From NCBI GenBank assembly GCA_014360805.1, contig JACIWU010000028.1:1-35032 (forward strand): DNA of 35,032 nt, written 5' to 3'. Position numbers and translations under genes: made by a program. Origin of the DNA: Chloroflexota bacterium (GTDB lineage: Bacteria > Chloroflexota > Anaerolineae > DTLA01). Below, in pieces: positions 5,919-13,249 of the stretch (its first letter is position 1; every line of letters begins with the position of its first letter). Below the pieces are notes generated by a model. That model searched no databases. It worked only from the letters and a program-made list of their open reading frames with translations, and was not told where the DNA came from.

Positions 5919-6332
5919 CTACTCTCCTTTCTCTGAGTCTGGAAGGTTGGCCATATCCTTGACAATATCGTCCATGGTGAGGATACCCACAGGGCGCTGC
6001 GGCGCGGGGCGAGCGTGCAGGATGATGAGTTGATGCACGCCGCGATCCAGCATAATCTGGACGGCCGCCTGGACCGGGATATCGGGGATGATGGTGGCGA
6101 CTTGGGTCGTCATGATGTCTTCGGCGCGGAGATTCGCGAAGGGCTTGAGGTACGCCCGCACCATGTCGGTGCGGGAAATGATGCCGACAAGTTCGCCGTT
6201 CGGGTTCACGACGGCTACGGCGCTGGCGCGGTCGCGGGCCATGAGCGCCGCGACTTCCGTCAGCGGAGTGTCAGGAGCGCATGTTACAACCCCCCGGTGC
6301 ATGACATCACGAACGTACCGCACGCCGGACAA
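5919..6332 (-). CDS. Tandem CBS-domain protein
   Basis: The 137-residue product is a CBS pair with no other domain. The first motif begins VRYVRDVMHRGVV and ends at GIISRTDMVRAYL; the second begins LRAEDIMTTQVATI and ends at GILTMDDIVKDM. CBS pairs usually bind adenosine nucleotides and act as energy sensors. I chose a TTG start at 6332 because GGAGG lies 6 nt upstream and the CBS fold starts right after it. A GTG at 6323 has poorer spacing, and an ATG at 6404 would add an unconvincing 24-residue tail. The gene sits between acsB and acsD and nearly touches acsD, so it probably senses energy or cofactor state for this pathway; its target is unknown. Confidence 0.8.
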   Translation of the reverse strand: MSGVRYVRDVMHRGVVTCAPDTPLTEVAALMARDRASAVAVVNPNGELVGIISRTDMVRAYLKPFANLRAEDIMTTQVATIIPDIPVQAAVQIMLDRGVHQLIILHARPAPQRPVGILTMDDIVKDMANLPDSEKGE

Positions 6333-6447
6333 CCTATTCCTCCCCACGCAAGAATTCGTCTGCACAAGGATAGCCTGGGAGGCGCCGCCCGTCAAGCGCA
6401 GCACAACCCAGGCCTGGCGCAGGCGGTCTTCCGCGACGCGCCATTGG

Positions 6448-6513: not shown

Positions 6514-8799
6514 CTAGAACAGCGGCGGCATGGTCAGCGCCGGATGCCCCTTCTCCTCCAGGAAGGGCAGCATCTCATCCACCGTCGTCGCCACGCGCTC
6601 GTCCGCGATCTTGTCCAACAGGTCGGGGTCGCCCTCGCGCGCGGCGGCCGCCTTGAGTTCCTCGGCCATCGTCTCCTTGAGGATGGACGACATCCACACG
6701 ATGCGCTTGAGGCCGCCGTCGGCCGCGATGAACTTGCGGCTCACCAGGAAGTACTTGCCCACGCCCATCACGCCGGGCGTCTGGAGCCCGCCGCCGGCCA
6801 CCCCTGCCAGCGTGGAGAACGTCATCCCCGCCGGCGTCATGCTCGGATCCTCGCGCGACACCACCATGAACCCGTTGGCCTCGGGCACTACCATCATGAT
6901 CGCCTCAAAGCAGCCGCACGCCGTCATCGGGTTCTCCATGATGGAGTACATGGAAACCTCTTGTACCGTCCCGTGCGAAGCCGCCTGTACGAACTCGTTC
7001 ACCTTGTCAAAGTAGCCCTTGACTGGGTCCAGGCACTTCCCCTTGGGGATGGGCTGGTTCGGGCCGGTGGGGTTGATCTGGTACGAAGCCTTGCAGTCCA
7101 GCCAGTTATAGGCTCCGCACAGCCCAAGGCGCTCGGGCGAGACCACGCACACGTGGTTCGGCGCGAAACTCTGGCACAGCGTGCAGGAGTAGAACTCCTC
7201 CACCGACTCGTCCGTCATATCGGCCAGGCGCTGGTTGCGGTAGTTGTACGCCTCGCGCGCCTTCGCCAGCCATTCCTCTATCTTCTGCGGATCCGTGTAG
7301 ATGGTTACCTGAATCTTGTCCACGATGGCGCCGAAGTCCGCATGGAAGCGGGCGACCAGAATCTTGCCGAAGTGCTCCAGGTTGAACCCCTTCTCGGCGG
7401 CGGCTTTGCTGATGCGGATCCAGGCGATGTCGCGCTGCCCGATGTGCTGGATGCCCGACGCGCCGTTGATGAAGTAGTGAATCTGTCGCTCCAGCACGGG
7501 TTCAAAGTCCTCTTGCATCTTGCGGCCCGCCACTTCCACCACGATGCCCATATCCATGGCGCCGCCGACCGGCACGTTCTCAATGCCTGGCCCGACCACG
7601 GTAACCTTGCCGTCTTCCACGGCGTCAAAGTCGGTCATGCGCAGGTACTCAAAGCACCGCGCCTTCTTGCCGCCGAACTCAATCCGCATATCCTCGCGGC
7701 GCACGCGCTCGCCCTCAAAGGCCGACCCGTAGGGCACGGGGATGGGCACTTCGGTAACCTTGATCTTCACGCCGCGCACTTCAATGCACCGCTGGACGAG
7801 GCGCTTGGCCCGCTCCAGGTCATTCTCGCCGGGGATGTCGTCAAACGGCATGGAGATGACGTGCTCGTAGGACGTGATGCCGGTGGGCAAAATCTGCGGA
7901 ATGACCGTGTCGGCGATCACGGGGAACCCGTAGTTGATCGCCCCGGCCGCCGCTGCGTACTTCAGGTCGTCCACCTCGCCCAGCGCCAGCACGAAGGCGA
8001 ACACGCGGTACTTGTTATACAGCAGGATATCCCGCGCCATGCCGCCCTTCATCCCGCCGAACGTCAGCGCCGAGCGGGTTGCGAACCCCAACGCGTAGAT
8101 GGCCGAAATCGTGTCGGTGCCGAACGGCACGGTGTAGGTGTCGTACCCGAGTTCTACGCCTTCCTCCATCAACTGATGGATGATGCTCCGCCCGTTCACG
8201 TTGCCGCTGAGGAACACCAGGATGTTGCGCTGCTGCAACTGGCGTACGATCTCCACGGCCACCTCGTTGGACTTGGCGCAGCCGACGATGGCCGCGAAGC
8301 CGGGCATGCGCCCGTCCACCAACTGGATACCCCAGGCGCGCAGTTGGATGTCGTCAATGGGGCCGTTGAGCGTGCCCCCGTTCCCCTCGCCCTCAAACTC
8401 CGGCGATGTGAAACTGCCGCCCTTGGCGATCTTGCCGCCCCAGGTGATCTTCTCGGGCTGCTCGCCGTAGGCGAAGCGAATGCCCTCAATCAACTCCGCC
8501 GCGAACAGGGTGGCGATGCCGGAGTCCAGCGTCTCGCCCAGGTAAGGAAGCCAGACTTGCTCACGCGGAATCGGGTGCAACAGCGCCTTGGCCCGCTCAA
8601 GCACCGCCGGCATATCGCCCAGTTTGGACACCTCAATCCCCGTGAGGCCCAGGATGACGGGCAGGTAGTAGGCCGTGTTGGTGAACTGCACCGGCGTGTC
8701 CGGCCCAAGTTCCTTGAGCGCCTTGTTGAGCAGTTGCTCCGCCTCATAGACCAGCGCCGTGGCCCCGCGGATGGCTCGTGTGGCTATGTATCTGGACAT
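6514..8799 (-). CDS. acsB: Acetyl-CoA synthase (CO-methylating), ACS subunit
   Basis: AcsB joins CO, the corrinoid-bound methyl group and CoA into acetyl-CoA at the nickel-containing A-cluster. The A-cluster ligands are all present: C539, C542, C551 and C561 hold the [4Fe-4S] cluster, and C628-G-C630 bind the two-metal site. They sit in the hallmark contexts CTLCQSFAPNHVC, RLGLCGAYNWLDC and TACGCFEA. Spacing between these residues equals that of the Moorella enzyme (C506, C509, C518, C528, C595, C597) with a constant offset of 33, so extra residues lie only in the N-terminal half. The 761-residue protein starts at an ATG with AAGGAGG 8 nt upstream, 39 nt after acsA. It should form a complex with AcsA, with CO passing through an internal tunnel. 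Confidence 0.97.
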   Translation of the reverse strand: MSRYIATRAIRGATALVYEAEQLLNKALKELGPDTPVQFTNTAYYLPVILGLTGIEVSKLGDMPAVLERAKALLHPIPREQVWLPYLGETLDSGIATLFAAELIEGIRFAYGEQPEKITWGGKIAKGGSFTSPEFEGEGNGGTLNGPIDDIQLRAWGIQLVDGRMPGFAAIVGCAKSNEVAVEIVRQLQQRNILVFLSGNVNGRSIIHQLMEEGVELGYDTYTVPFGTDTISAIYALGFATRSALTFGGMKGGMARDILLYNKYRVFAFVLALGEVDDLKYAAAAGAINYGFPVIADTVIPQILPTGITSYEHVISMPFDDIPGENDLERAKRLVQRCIEVRGVKIKVTEVPIPVPYGSAFEGERVRREDMRIEFGGKKARCFEYLRMTDFDAVEDGKVTVVGPGIENVPVGGAMDMGIVVEVAGRKMQEDFEPVLERQIHYFINGASGIQHIGQRDIAWIRISKAAAEKGFNLEHFGKILVARFHADFGAIVDKIQVTIYTDPQKIEEWLAKAREAYNYRNQRLADMTDESVEEFYSCTLCQSFAPNHVCVVSPERLGLCGAYNWLDCKASYQINPTGPNQPIPKGKCLDPVKGYFDKVNEFVQAASHGTVQEVSMYSIMENPMTACGCFEAIMMVVPEANGFMVVSREDPSMTPAGMTFSTLAGVAGGGLQTPGVMGVGKYFLVSRKFIAADGGLKRIVWMSSILKETMAEELKAAAAREGDPDLLDKIADERVATTVDEMLPFLEEKGHPALTMPPLF

Positions 8800-8838: not shown

Positions 8839-10782
8839 CTACTTGGAAGCGGCCACGGTCTTCAGATACTCCAGCATAAACGCGTCGCCGCTCTTCCCGA
8901 AGCGGTTCGGATCCCACGGAACAAGGCCCAACTTCTCGCGCTTCTTGTCAATGTGCGCCAGCGACTTCTCCAGAATCTTGCGCCAGTCGGGTTCAAACTC
9001 CAGTTTGCCGCCCACCTGCGATTCCCAGCCCTCGGTCATCAGCCGAGTAACCACATCGCTGGCGGACACAGGCGAATGGACGCCGAACAGCACGTAGGCC
9101 CCCGACGCTACGAAGTACGTCCCGATGGCAATCGCCTTCTCGCACATGTACTCTGGGCAGATGCCCACCGCCGGCAGGTCGTCTATATCCTCGCCCAGGC
9201 CGCCCTCGGTTGCCATCTGCGTCAGCACCGTCAGGATGCGCGAGTTGTCCACGCATGAACCCAGGTGCAGCACCGGCGGCACGCCCACTGCCTCGCAGAC
9301 CTCGCGCAGCCCCTTGCCGGTCGCCGCCCAGATTTCCGGCGACAGCAGCCCGTACTTGGCCGAACCCGTCGCCGCGCAGCCGGTTACCACGACCAGCACG
9401 TCGTTGGCCACGAACTCCTTGACCAGGTTGTAGATGCCCTCATCCTGCGGGACGCGCGCATTGTTACACCCCACGACGCCGGCAGCGCCGCGAATGCGCC
9501 CCTGCACGATGGCATCGTTCAGCGGGCGGAACGACCCGCGATACACGCCGCCCTGCATGTAGTTGAGATACTCGTGGGAGAACCCCGCGACGATGTTATT
9601 CTTGATAGGCGGGATGCGGGTCTTGCCACGGTTCGGGTAGTTGTCAATGGCCGCGCGCACGATGGCCTTTGCCGAATCCAGCGCGCGGCTCTCGTCAAAC
9701 TCAATGTGCGTCGCGCCAGGAATCTTGGCCTTCGGCGAAGTCGTGATGAGTTTCGTGTGGTAGTTCTCGGCCAGCGACGCCAGCGCCTGCATGATGCACT
9801 GCACGTCCACGATCATCGCCTCCACCGCGCCGGTGATGATGGCCAACTCTTGGTGGAGGAAGTTGCCCGCCGGCGAGATGCCGTGGCGCATGAGAATCTC
9901 GTTGCCGGTGCAGCAGATGCCCGCCAGATTGATGCCATTAGCGCCCTTCGTCTTGGCGTAGGCGATCAACTCCGGATCCTGGGCTGCCGCGACGATCATC
10001 TCCGACAGCGTCGGCTCATGCCCGTGCACGATGATGTTCACCTGATCTTCCTTCAGGACGCCCAGGTTGATCTCGGTGCTGATAGGCGCGGGTGTGCCGA
10101 ACAGAATATCGCTGATGTCGGTGGCCAGCATGGACCCGCCCCAGCCGTCGGCCAGAGACGTGCGCAGCGAATGGCGCAGGATGTTCTCGGGATCCAAATC
10201 CACGCCCTCATGGGTGCGGTGGAGCGTCTCCACAATCTCGCGGTCCACGCCTCGCGGCACGATGCCCAGTTTCTTCCAAATCTCCTGCCGCTTCTTGGTG
10301 GCACGGGTTACGTAGGTAACCTGCCCCGTCTGCCGCCCGAAGTTGGCGAGGGCTTCGGTGGCTACGTCCAGCGCGATCTCCTCTTTCGTGCGTCCCTGGG
10401 TGGGGATGCCCATATACCGCGCCACGGCGTGGAGTTTGGCCACATCGCGGATGCGGTAGCCCTGCCCCTCGCCCTTGGCCACGTGCAGCAGGGTCATCGC
10501 CAGGTCGCGCCCGTGATCCGAGTGGGCCGAAGCGCCGCCGGCCACCATGCGGGCGAAGTTGCGCGCGGCCACGGTGTGGACATCGGCCCCGCAAACGCCG
10601 CGCGTCGTCTTGCCCACAAGGCGGCATGGGCCCATGAAGCAAATCTTGCAGCACGCGCCCGTTTCGCCGATGGGGCACGGCTTCACTTCCTCGGCGCGGC
10701 TAAAGGCCGTAGAAATGTTCTCCTCCGCAGCGATTTTCAGCATCTCAATGGCCGCGGGGTCAATGGTTTTGAACTCTGTCAT
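8839..10782 (-). CDS. acsA: Carbon monoxide dehydrogenase, Ni-containing catalytic subunit
   Basis: AcsA reduces CO2 to CO for the carbonyl branch, and can run in reverse. N-terminal cysteines C36, C44, C45, C48, C53 and C64 (CPIGETGACCKIC) build the B and D clusters. Likely C-cluster ligands are in HGHEP (H253/H255), GICCTGNE (C290/C291), VQC (C329), VVGCNN (C439), VTGCAATG (C469) and LGSCVDN (C510). The 647-residue length fits the CooS/AcsA family. The chosen ATG at 10782 has AGGAGGG with good spacing; an upstream start at 10806 would place that site inside the gene. It follows the HMA-fold gene by 36 nt and precedes acsB by 39 nt, the usual acsAB pairing. Confidence 0.97.
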   Translation of the reverse strand: MTEFKTIDPAAIEMLKIAAEENISTAFSRAEEVKPCPIGETGACCKICFMGPCRLVGKTTRGVCGADVHTVAARNFARMVAGGASAHSDHGRDLAMTLLHVAKGEGQGYRIRDVAKLHAVARYMGIPTQGRTKEEIALDVATEALANFGRQTGQVTYVTRATKKRQEIWKKLGIVPRGVDREIVETLHRTHEGVDLDPENILRHSLRTSLADGWGGSMLATDISDILFGTPAPISTEINLGVLKEDQVNIIVHGHEPTLSEMIVAAAQDPELIAYAKTKGANGINLAGICCTGNEILMRHGISPAGNFLHQELAIITGAVEAMIVDVQCIMQALASLAENYHTKLITTSPKAKIPGATHIEFDESRALDSAKAIVRAAIDNYPNRGKTRIPPIKNNIVAGFSHEYLNYMQGGVYRGSFRPLNDAIVQGRIRGAAGVVGCNNARVPQDEGIYNLVKEFVANDVLVVVTGCAATGSAKYGLLSPEIWAATGKGLREVCEAVGVPPVLHLGSCVDNSRILTVLTQMATEGGLGEDIDDLPAVGICPEYMCEKAIAIGTYFVASGAYVLFGVHSPVSASDVVTRLMTEGWESQVGGKLEFEPDWRKILEKSLAHIDKKREKLGLVPWDPNRFGKSGDAFMLEYLKTVAASK

Positions 10783-10818: not shown

Positions 10819-11151
10819 TTAGTACTTGCGATGGTCGCCCGACATCTTGAGGTCGGCCAGGTTCGTCTCAGTCATGCGCCCAGCCACAGTGTACCACATG
10901 GCGTTGTCTTTGGTCTGCTCCGGATACGTGGGGAGTTCCAGTTCCACGCCAACGGGATAGCCTGCATCGGCCAGGGCCTTCTCAAGCGTGTCGGGGTTCA
11001 CGCGGTTCGGATCGTAGGTAATGCGGACGGTTTTCCATGCTGAACTGGCGTAGACATCTTCCACGCCGGGGATGCCCAGGAGTGCCTGTCGGACAATGGG
11101 CACGTGGTGGTCTGCCCACATTCGCGGGACGCTATACTCAACGTCTTCCAT
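10819..11151 (-). CDS. HMA-fold (heavy-metal-associated) protein with Met/His in place of the Cys motif
   Basis: The 110-residue product has one HMA-like ferredoxin fold (about 4-70): a first strand VEYSVP, a helix after the metal loop, the IPGVEDVYASSAWKTVRITYDP hairpin shape (quoted in part only: GVEDVY and TVRITYDP), and a second helix LEKALADAGYP. In metal chaperones the loop is MXCXXC. Here M11 is kept but the cysteines are replaced by A13 and H16, with H15 beside it, and the protein has no cysteine at all. A tail (71-110) follows the domain. The ATG at 11151 has GGGAGAAGG upstream. It is the first gene after the internal promoter and directly precedes the nickel enzymes, so a nickel-handling role is plausible but unproven. 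Confidence 0.8.
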   Translation of the reverse strand: MEDVEYSVPRMWADHHVPIVRQALLGIPGVEDVYASSAWKTVRITYDPNRVNPDTLEKALADAGYPVGVELELPTYPEQTKDNAMWYTVAGRMTETNLADLKMSGDHRKY

Positions 11152-11227: not shown

Positions 11228-11270
11228 ATTATAACGATTTTTGCGCCGCCCCACAAATTGATTATGTGGG
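11228..11270 (-). promoter_or_regulatory. Internal promoter and overlapping dyad upstream of the HMA-acsA-acsB block
   Basis: On the minus strand TTGTGG (11251-11256) and a perfect TATAAT (11228-11233) are separated by exactly 17 nt. The expected start near 11221 gives a ~70-nt leader before the HMA gene. An inverted repeat CCCACA-N9-TGTGGG (11250-11270) overlaps the -35 box and could be an operator. The site lies in the 223-nt gap after fhs, the largest gap inside the operon. Confidence 0.6.
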
Positions 11271-11301: not shown

Positions 11302-11361
11302 TGCCAAATGCGATTGGCATAAGGCCCTGCCGGGCGGGGCCTCCACGCCCACACCCGGCAG
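11302..11361 (-). other. Two inverted repeats in the fhs-HMA gap
   Basis: TGCCAA-N6-TTGGCA (11302-11319) is a compact dyad of operator size, about 45 nt upstream of the internal -35 box. CTGCCGGG (11327-11334) pairs with CCCGGCAG (11354-11361) to form a stem soon after the fhs stop codon. Neither has a U run on the minus strand, so termination between fhs and the HMA gene is not clearly encoded. Confidence 0.35.
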
Positions 11362-11374
11362 GAACAGTCGTGCT

Positions 11375-13249
11375 CTAGAACAGACCCACGACCCGGCCGG
11401 TCTCCAGGTCAAGATCCACGTCGGTGAAGGCCGGGCGGGTTGGCAAGCCGGGCATCGTGCGCATGGTGCCGCACAGCGGGTACAGGAACCCCGCCCCAAC
11501 GCTCGCCCGCACGTCCACCACCGGCAGCGTCCAGCCGCGCGGCGCGCCCTTCAGCGTGGGATCATGCGTAAACGACAGGTGGGTCTTCGCCATGCAGATG
11601 GGCAGGTGGCTCAACCCCAACTTGGTGAACAGTTCAATCTTCGCGTTGGCTTCCTGCGTGTACGTAACGCCATCGGCCCGATAGATTTCGCGGGCGATGG
11701 TCTCAATCTTTTCCTTGATGGACATATCGTCCGGATACAGGAAGCGGAACTGCGACGGCTTCTCGCATGCCGCGATCACCGCCTCGGCCAGTTCCGCGCC
11801 GCCTTCGCCGCCCTTGGCCCAGACTTCGCTCACAAAAGCGCCCTCGGCGCCCGCCGCAACCGCTGCCTCTCGGATCAAGGCAATCTCAGCCTCCGTATCG
11901 GTTGCAAAACGGTTGATGGCCACCACTACCGGCACGCCGAATTTGCGCGCATTCTCCACATGCTGAATCAGGTTGGGCAGGCCCGCTTCCAAGAGTCGCA
12001 GATTCTCCTCTTTGTAGGCCTTGTCCAGCGGCTTGCCCGGGACCACAGCGGGGCCGCCACCGTGCATCTTCAGCGCCCGCACGCTGGCGACCAGCACCAC
12101 GCAGTTGGGCACCAGACCGGAAACGCGGCACTTGATGTTCATGAACTTCTCCATCCCGCAGTCCGCGCCGAACCCGCTTTCCGTAACCACATAGTCGGCC
12201 AGTTTCAAGGCAATGCGGTCGGCCAGGATGGAACTGTTCCCCTGGGCGATGTTGGCAAACGGGCCGCAATGGACAAACGCCGGGCTGCCCTGCAGCGTCT
12301 GCATTAGGTTGGGCATGACGGCATCCTTCAGGAGGACGGTCATGGCGCCGGCCACGTTGAGGTCCTCGGCGGTGATGGGTTCGCCCTTCTTGCTCGTGCC
12401 GATGATGATGCGGCCCATGCGCTCGCGCAGGTCGGCCAGGCCGCTGCACAGCGCCAGCGCCGCCATGATCTCGGACGCCACCGTGATGTCGTAGCCGGTC
12501 GCCCGCGGCGGGCCGTCGTTGACGGTCCCGAGGCCGATGATGATATTCCGCAACTGGGCATCGCTCACGTCCACAACCCGCCGCCACTGGATGGAGTACG
12601 GGTCAATGTTCAGGCGGAACATCCGCTCGCGGTCCGCGTCGCTCAGGTCCGACGGCCGCTCGGACTTGATGCCCAGTTTCGCCAGGCGTTTCCGCATAGA
12701 CGGCGTGTACTGATCATCGGGGCATAGCGCCTTGGCCAGGAAGTTGGTGCTCCAGCGCGACTCTTTCTGGATGCGGTTGTCAATGGCAGCGGCCAGCAGG
12801 TTGTGGGCCGCGCCCACGGCGTGGATGTCGCCCGTCAGGTGCAGGTTGAAATCCTCCATGGGGACAACCTGGCTATAGCCGCCGCCTGCAGCGCCGCCCT
12901 TGATCCCGAAGGTCGGACCTTGCGACGGCTGGCGGATGCACGTGAAGACATTCTTGCCCAGGTAGGCCAGCCCCTGGCTCACGCCGATGGTCGTTACCGT
13001 CTTGCCTTCGCCCAGCGGGGTGGGGGTGATCGCCGTAACGTCAATGTACTTGCCGTTGGGGCGATCCTTCAGCCGCTCCAGGACGCTCAGGTGCACCTTG
13101 GCCTTGTACTTCCCGTACAGGTCCACTTCGTCCGGCAGCAGCCCGATCTCTTCCATGATCTCGGTGATTGGGCGAAGTTTGGCTTCTTGCGCGATCTCAA
13201 TGTCGCTGGGTACGGGGGTCCTGCGTTCTACGTTGAGTTGCTTTCCCAT
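11375..13249 (-). CDS. fhs: Formate--tetrahydrofolate ligase, long form
   Basis: Fhs makes 10-formyl-THF from formate, THF and ATP, the entry step of the methyl branch. The ATP loop TPLGEGKT, the [12 protein letters not shown] stretch, [12 protein letters not shown] and the C-terminal TMPGLPTRP are all family signatures. At 624 residues it is longer than the classic acetogen enzyme (about 556-560). The extra length includes a segment near residues 150-200 (around [20 protein letters not shown]), which resembles the long form seen in eukaryotic C1-THF synthases. The ATG at 13249 is preceded by AAGGAAACT and a further AGGAGG; an upstream ATG at 13294 lacks a good site. It follows folD by 63 nt. 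Confidence 0.95.

Follow-up and report, generated by a model that had tools for sequence, protein, structure and literature searches.

An HMA-Fold Protein with an Asp-His-His Loop, Encoded Directly before acsA, Is a Candidate Accessory Protein of Nickel CO Dehydrogenase in Anaerolineae

Introduction

Why does a Wood-Ljungdahl operon of a Chloroflexota bacterium carry, directly before acsA and acsB, a gene for a small protein that has the fold of heavy-metal chaperones and not a single cysteine? The question is raised by the 35,032-nucleotide stretch analysed here (the window). Nickel delivery to CO dehydrogenase (CODH) and acetyl-CoA synthase (ACS) is only partly understood. Maturation of the C-cluster of CODH uses CooC, sometimes aided by the nickel-binding proteins CooT and CooJ; the roles of these three proteins are debated, and the helpers do not cover all operons (PMC6006190). 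In the open literature we found no paper that joins an HMA protein or COG2608 with CODH, and two surveys of CODH gene context make no reference to such a protein in their main texts. The fold and the kind of role that we discuss are known; their combination and the Asp-His-His site are new.

Results

The Protein Has an HMA Fold

The gene occupies positions 10819..11151 on the minus strand, with an ATG at 11151, a stop at 10819 and a GAGGGAG-type ribosome-binding site ahead of the ATG. Its translation contains 110 residues and, as the initial annotation had stated, 0 cysteines. The PF00403 (HMA) profile scores this protein at 30.8 bits against a Pfam gathering cut-off of 24.8, and two relatives also score above this value (L049: 26.5; L160: 26.1). 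NCBIfam models of the CopZ/MerP type stay far under their curated cut-offs (MerP: 32.8 vs 92.55; CopZ_Bs: 28.2 vs 91; UxxU: 22.7 vs 95). An AlphaFold2 model built from 69 aligned homologues predicts a ferredoxin-like beta-alpha-beta-beta-alpha fold, with pLDDT values of 96-98 across residues 1-70 and 67-75 across the tail. Alignment of this model with VIA-align to CopZ (2qif) and MerP (1osd) gave Z scores of 13.5-13.6 (2qif: 13.6) and 1.0 Å over 68 residues. An HMA fold had been proposed before, with structure prediction as a check, and the profile score, the Z score to CopZ and the predicted structure all agree with it.

The Conserved Site Is Asp-His-His

The loop that stands in place of MXCXXC is encoded by the codons for P9-R-M-W-A-D-H-H-V-P-I19 (11095..11127, minus strand), and the translated sequence matches the earlier reading M11-W12-A13-D14-H15-H16. 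We searched 60 genomes of the class by similarity to the whole protein, without requiring any motif; with members defined by E below 1e-12, the family occurs in 34 genomes. P9, D14, H15, H16 and V17 are invariant in all 34 loop-spanning sequences gathered without motif selection; homologues lacking the loop, to which the initial annotation had looked as counterevidence, did not appear among them. S36, G64 and Y65 are invariant in 35/35 rows of the same unselected alignment. One further family member (L160) carries T instead of V at position 17. We also scanned 84,980 species genomes with the pattern Px[ML][YW][AG]DHHV, which gave 268 pattern matches, 247 of them encoding a relative; the best 80 of these 247 loci were fetched, and their loop is conserved by design of the search pattern.

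Position 11 is less constant (69 M, 28 L, 1 I and 1 V among 99 sequences). Conservation of the M-X4-HH loop, which the initial annotation had raised as a check, thus holds for the histidines, present in 34/34 sequences of the unselected set, and fails for the methionine: since leucine takes this position in 28/99 sequences, Met11 cannot be a required ligand, and we dropped it as a candidate. Judged from the alignments, the conserved site is Asp-His-His and not Met/His. In all 99 intact sequences the first cysteine position of MXCXXC holds A or G and the second holds H, and 84 of 100 family sequences are free of cysteine altogether. Placed on the metal loop, Asp-His-His would offer donors of the kind that suit a borderline divalent ion.

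The second conserved part is the C-terminal tail, a candidate docking peptide encoded by the codons for T96 to Y110 (...DLKMSGDHRKY; 10822..10866, minus strand). Among 100 sequences, 83 have endings like MSG[DE][FH]RKY, 11 are longer with LWPCPG, and 6 end otherwise, some by truncation. Because the tail is conserved in sequence while its model confidence is low, it may be a peptide that becomes ordered on a partner. In the subgroup with the longer C-terminus (L046, L047, L049-L052, L054, L121, L132, L135, L157-L159), the LWPCPG motif holds the single conserved cysteine.

The Gene Keeps Its Place before acsA

The minus-strand order of the operon is fchA-folD-fhs-HMA-acsA-acsB-CBS-acsD-acsC-acsV-acsE, and the initial annotation was correct in placing the HMA gene in a Wood-Ljungdahl operon directly before acsA-acsB. 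The gene acsA (8839..10782, minus strand) encodes the catalytic subunit of Ni-CODH (TIGR01702), and acsB (6514..8799, minus strand) encodes acetyl-CoA synthase. The usual upstream neighbour is fhs (11375..13249, minus strand; frame start approximate) for formate-THF ligase, and the constant downstream neighbour is acsA. Whether the position before acsA is conserved had been raised as a check, and the relatives bear it out: acsA is the next recognised same-strand operon gene in 77/77 loci with room (from the best 80 of 247), including one (L087) in which other genes intervene. The genes between HMA and acsA in L037 and L087 are NADH-dehydrogenase-like.

In 106 of the 107 HMA loci with room, acsB follows acsA. 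The exception is G040, where HMA-acsA is followed by unrelated genes on its contig and acsB-CBS-acsD-acsC-acsV lies within a different contig. In this genome acsA may have been split from acsB, with the HMA gene remaining beside acsA; an assembly error is also possible. Across over a hundred related operons, then, the HMA gene is kept in the same place.

Other parts of these operons also deserve mention. The two-CBS-domain protein between acsB and acsD (5919-6404, minus strand), present there in many relatives too and doubled in tandem in L024, is a possible adenylate-responsive regulator of CODH/ACS. In L029 (11708-17026, +) and L052 (500-4400, -), an intein interrupts acsB within the A-cluster-holding C-terminal domain of ACS and carries a LAGLIDADG homing endonuclease. 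A natural ACS-CdhD fusion, with acsB and acsD in one open frame, occurs in L032 (12942-16622, +), L029 (11705-17029, +) and L035 (3413-7213, -); Pfam detects both domains in L029 and L032.

The Gene Accompanies acsA and acsB Jointly

In the class sample of 60 genomes, acsB occurs in 36 and acsA in 39, and all 34 HMA-bearing genomes have acsA. Three genomes contain acsB without the HMA gene (G013, G048 and also G045, where acsB is at a contig edge and no CODH was found), and G017, G023 and G033 have CODH with neither acsB nor HMA. Matches among the 251 genomes of the phylum sample are bimodal, with 11 members at E below 1e-29 and generic HMA proteins from 1.9e-15. All 11 HMA-bearing genomes have acsA and acsB; none of the 17 genomes with acsB but without acsA has the HMA gene, and neither does any genome of the class or phylum samples that has CODH without ACS. 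Nine genomes of the phylum sample have acsA and acsB but no HMA gene; acsA adjoins acsB in five of them (G105, G106, G114, G202, G216) and lies apart from it in at least three (G097, G228, G287). By these counts the HMA gene goes with acsA and acsB together, and its tightest physical bond is to acsA. Homologues far from CODH/ACS genes, which had been named as grounds for giving up a CODH-related role, were encountered neither in the fetched loci nor in the class genomes.

In both genomes of family f12 (G013, G048; L197, L198), acsA has been relocated away from the acs operon and the HMA gene has been lost. A second CODH, 66% identical to AcsA, is encoded in the window genome (L156:8694-11500, on G000:C3) and in L199:6652-9459 (G002:C22); directly before it, in place of the HMA gene, are hemerythrin and DUF2249 genes, and an NDHDPKPL motif is present in the DUF2249 protein. 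AcsA proteins show the same likeness (about 65%) whether or not the HMA gene accompanies them, and no alignment column separates the two groups, so that AcsA features marking a need for HMA were discarded as a candidate.

Within the genus, the HMA gene has dN/dS values of 0.05-0.14 and is under purifying selection. Trees of HMA and AcsA both divide the Actinobacteria into two groups, and four of the seven actinobacterial rows join the same three Chloroflexota (L088, L091, L095) in both. The simplest reading of these trees would be two joint transfers of HMA and acsA to Actinobacteria. HMA distances correlate with those of AcsA (r 0.65) and AcsB (0.62) and not with those of Fhs (0.21); a mirror-tree choice between AcsA and AcsB as partner failed at these values (0.65 vs 0.62). 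The operon also occurs in L100, a contig labelled Thermoguttaceae (Planctomycetota) whose HMA and AcsA group with Chloroflexota; this contig is either a transfer or mis-binned.

A Candidate Promoter Is Conserved in the Genus

All three congeners share an invariant block in the fhs-HMA gap. It contains an exact TATAAT (11228..11233, minus strand), a candidate -10 box, and the palindrome CCCACATAATCAATTTGTGGG (CCCACA-N9-TGTGGG; 11250..11270, minus strand), a candidate operator conserved in the genus only. A sigma-70 consensus scan reported no promoter in this gap; the scan is silent on TATAAT for want of a qualifying -35 box. The internal promoter claimed in the initial annotation is therefore plausible and unproven, with the conserved block for it and the empty scan against it. 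It would also be genus-specific, since the gap is often under 100 bases in other genera. As the mark of a wider regulon the palindrome was rejected (two sites in the genome, none outside the genus). Rfam models matched nothing in the window or in nine relatives, so a known RNA ahead of the HMA gene, such as a nickel/cobalt riboswitch, was rejected too. Immediately past the fhs stop is a 15-bp GC-rich hairpin without a T run (window 11326-11362), and the gap of the window folds with a z of -4.6, better than 200/200 shuffles.

The Protein Occurs beside CooC

The initial annotation had counted the lack of a CooC-type ATPase in the window in favour of a nickel-related role. The observation is correct for the window, but it lends no support, because a genome-wide search with a domain check located a CooC-type MinD-family ATPase elsewhere in the same genome (G000:C53:21122-21865) and 33 of the 34 HMA-bearing genomes encode one (E below 1e-60). 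The gene is often on the same contig, about 10-13 kb from the HMA gene and downstream of the operon start. We assign the ATPase to the CooC/AcsF type by its similarity to the ATPase inside the acs operons of HMA-less relatives. Such a gene lies inside most of the HMA-less acs operons examined and rarely inside HMA-bearing ones. This exclusion pattern at the operon level would fit an HMA gene that substitutes for CooC, but CooC in 33/34 HMA genomes eliminates this option and implies that the HMA protein works beside CooC.

CooT was found in 15/34 HMA-bearing genomes. The window protein itself does not match the CooT profile (PF10133), with HMA models alone reported at E up to 10. It lacks a CooJ-like His-rich C-terminal domain, with 3 His in 110 residues and two of these in the loop, and it lacks the P-loop with deviant Walker A motif of CooC/AcsF, which the ATPase on G000:C53 has.

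Discussion

The HMA protein is probably a helper, not described before, in the maturation or assembly of ACS-linked Ni-CODH. This reading as a CODH accessory draws on the HMA fold, on D14-H15-H16 in 34/34 sequences and on acsA as the next gene in 77/77 loci (from the best 80 of 247). It draws further on the co-occurrence with acsA, on the HMA gene of G040 staying with acsA and on two putative joint transfers, as well as on the conserved low-confidence tail, CooC in 33/34 genomes and the precedent of CooT and CooJ (PMC6006190). In the form that we give an even chance, the protein is a dedicated AcsA accessory protein of Anaerolineae-type operons, with a predicted metal-handling head (most likely for Ni(II)) and a partner-docking tail, acting beside CooC. 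In the HMA head, an Asp-His-His loop would have replaced the soft cysteine pair and would favour a harder divalent ion, which we infer to be most likely Ni(II). The conserved tail would dock on a partner, with AcsA or the AcsA-AcsB complex as the likeliest, and during C-cluster maturation the ion might be held, handed over, or the site kept occupied. The protein would work next to the ATPase CooC instead of replacing it, like CooT and CooJ elsewhere. A bolder version, which we put forward tentatively and with clearly less than even confidence, makes it the first HMA-fold nickel chaperone, a standard operon part whose Asp-His-His loop and docking tail would serve, jointly with CooC, to load the C-cluster of ACS-linked CODH.

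Several observations weigh against the accessory reading. Asp14 may be a mere helix N-cap and the loop a docking surface. No AcsA column marks a need for HMA, family f12 has lost the HMA gene with acsA moved, no HMA gene accompanies the other CODH of the window genome, and some acsA-acsB operons do without it (G105, G106, G114, G202, G216). Against metal supply in particular stands the fact that just one cysteine position became a ligand type.

This last point leads to the main rival of a metal-handling accessory, a structural or regulatory assembly subunit of CODH/ACS that has lost metal binding and uses the DHH loop and the tail to contact proteins, either linking AcsA to AcsB or binding an electron donor. 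Metal-free HMA folds are known as protein-binding modules. The replacement of C13 by A/G and of C16 by H leaves one possible ligand for two cysteines, the tail type is conserved (83/100 RKY-like, 11 CPG-like), and the gene tracks acsA and acsB jointly, never occurs in the CODH-only genomes examined and fits the distances of AcsA (0.65) and AcsB (0.62) alike, with Fhs at 0.21. Yet the metal loop is exactly where three neighbouring polar residues, including two His, are invariant, a plain contact surface would be expected to vary more over about 35 families, and G040 has HMA with acsA alone, subject to the assembly caveat. We consider such a subunit possible but somewhat unlikely.

A quite improbable alternative is a role in sensing, buffering or shielding metal instead of donating it, in which the protein would bind Ni, Zn or Cu close to the product of the operon and report metal status or keep the wrong metal from the A- or C-cluster. 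The candidate promoter with its palindrome, seen at the genus level, has this gene as its first, and the gene product shares its fold with metal buffers such as CopZ, but the protein has no DNA-binding or effector part, it is cysteine-free and hence a poor Cu(I) binder, and the palindrome is confined to the genus. That the gene is a passenger with no specific CODH/ACS role is hardly credible: operons are inherited and transferred as blocks, but a dN/dS of about 0.05, an invariant loop and retention in >100 operons despite varying gaps and gene order elsewhere speak against it.

A gene fixed before acsA across some 35 Anaerolineae families, and apparently co-transferred to another phylum, has a strong claim to being a factor of maturation or assembly that was missing so far. 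It would be a clear example of an Asp/His site arising in a chaperone fold that otherwise uses cysteines, and it may explain the difficulty of making such CODH/ACS enzymes active in other hosts.

Compared with HMA proteins of the CopZ/Atx1/MerP type, the window protein has the same fold over residues 1-68, a PF00403 score above cut-off and the conserved loop-5 tyrosine (Y65). It differs in that A13-D14-H15-H16 takes the place of MXCXXC, its relatives mostly have no cysteine at all, and the family adds a conserved 40-residue tail and the tie to acsA. With CooT and CooJ it shares being a small protein encoded beside CODH genes and occurring with CooC (PMC6006190, PMC13056359). CooT is an all-beta dimer that uses Cys2 and CooJ has a His-rich C-terminus (PMC6006190), whereas the window protein has an HMA fold and 3 His; CooT moreover coexists with it in 15/34 genomes. 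If the accessory reading is right, the HMA gene and the genes of the CooC/AcsF MinD-family ATPases both serve CODH/ACS maturation, but the HMA protein has no P-loop and coexists with CooC in 33/34 genomes.
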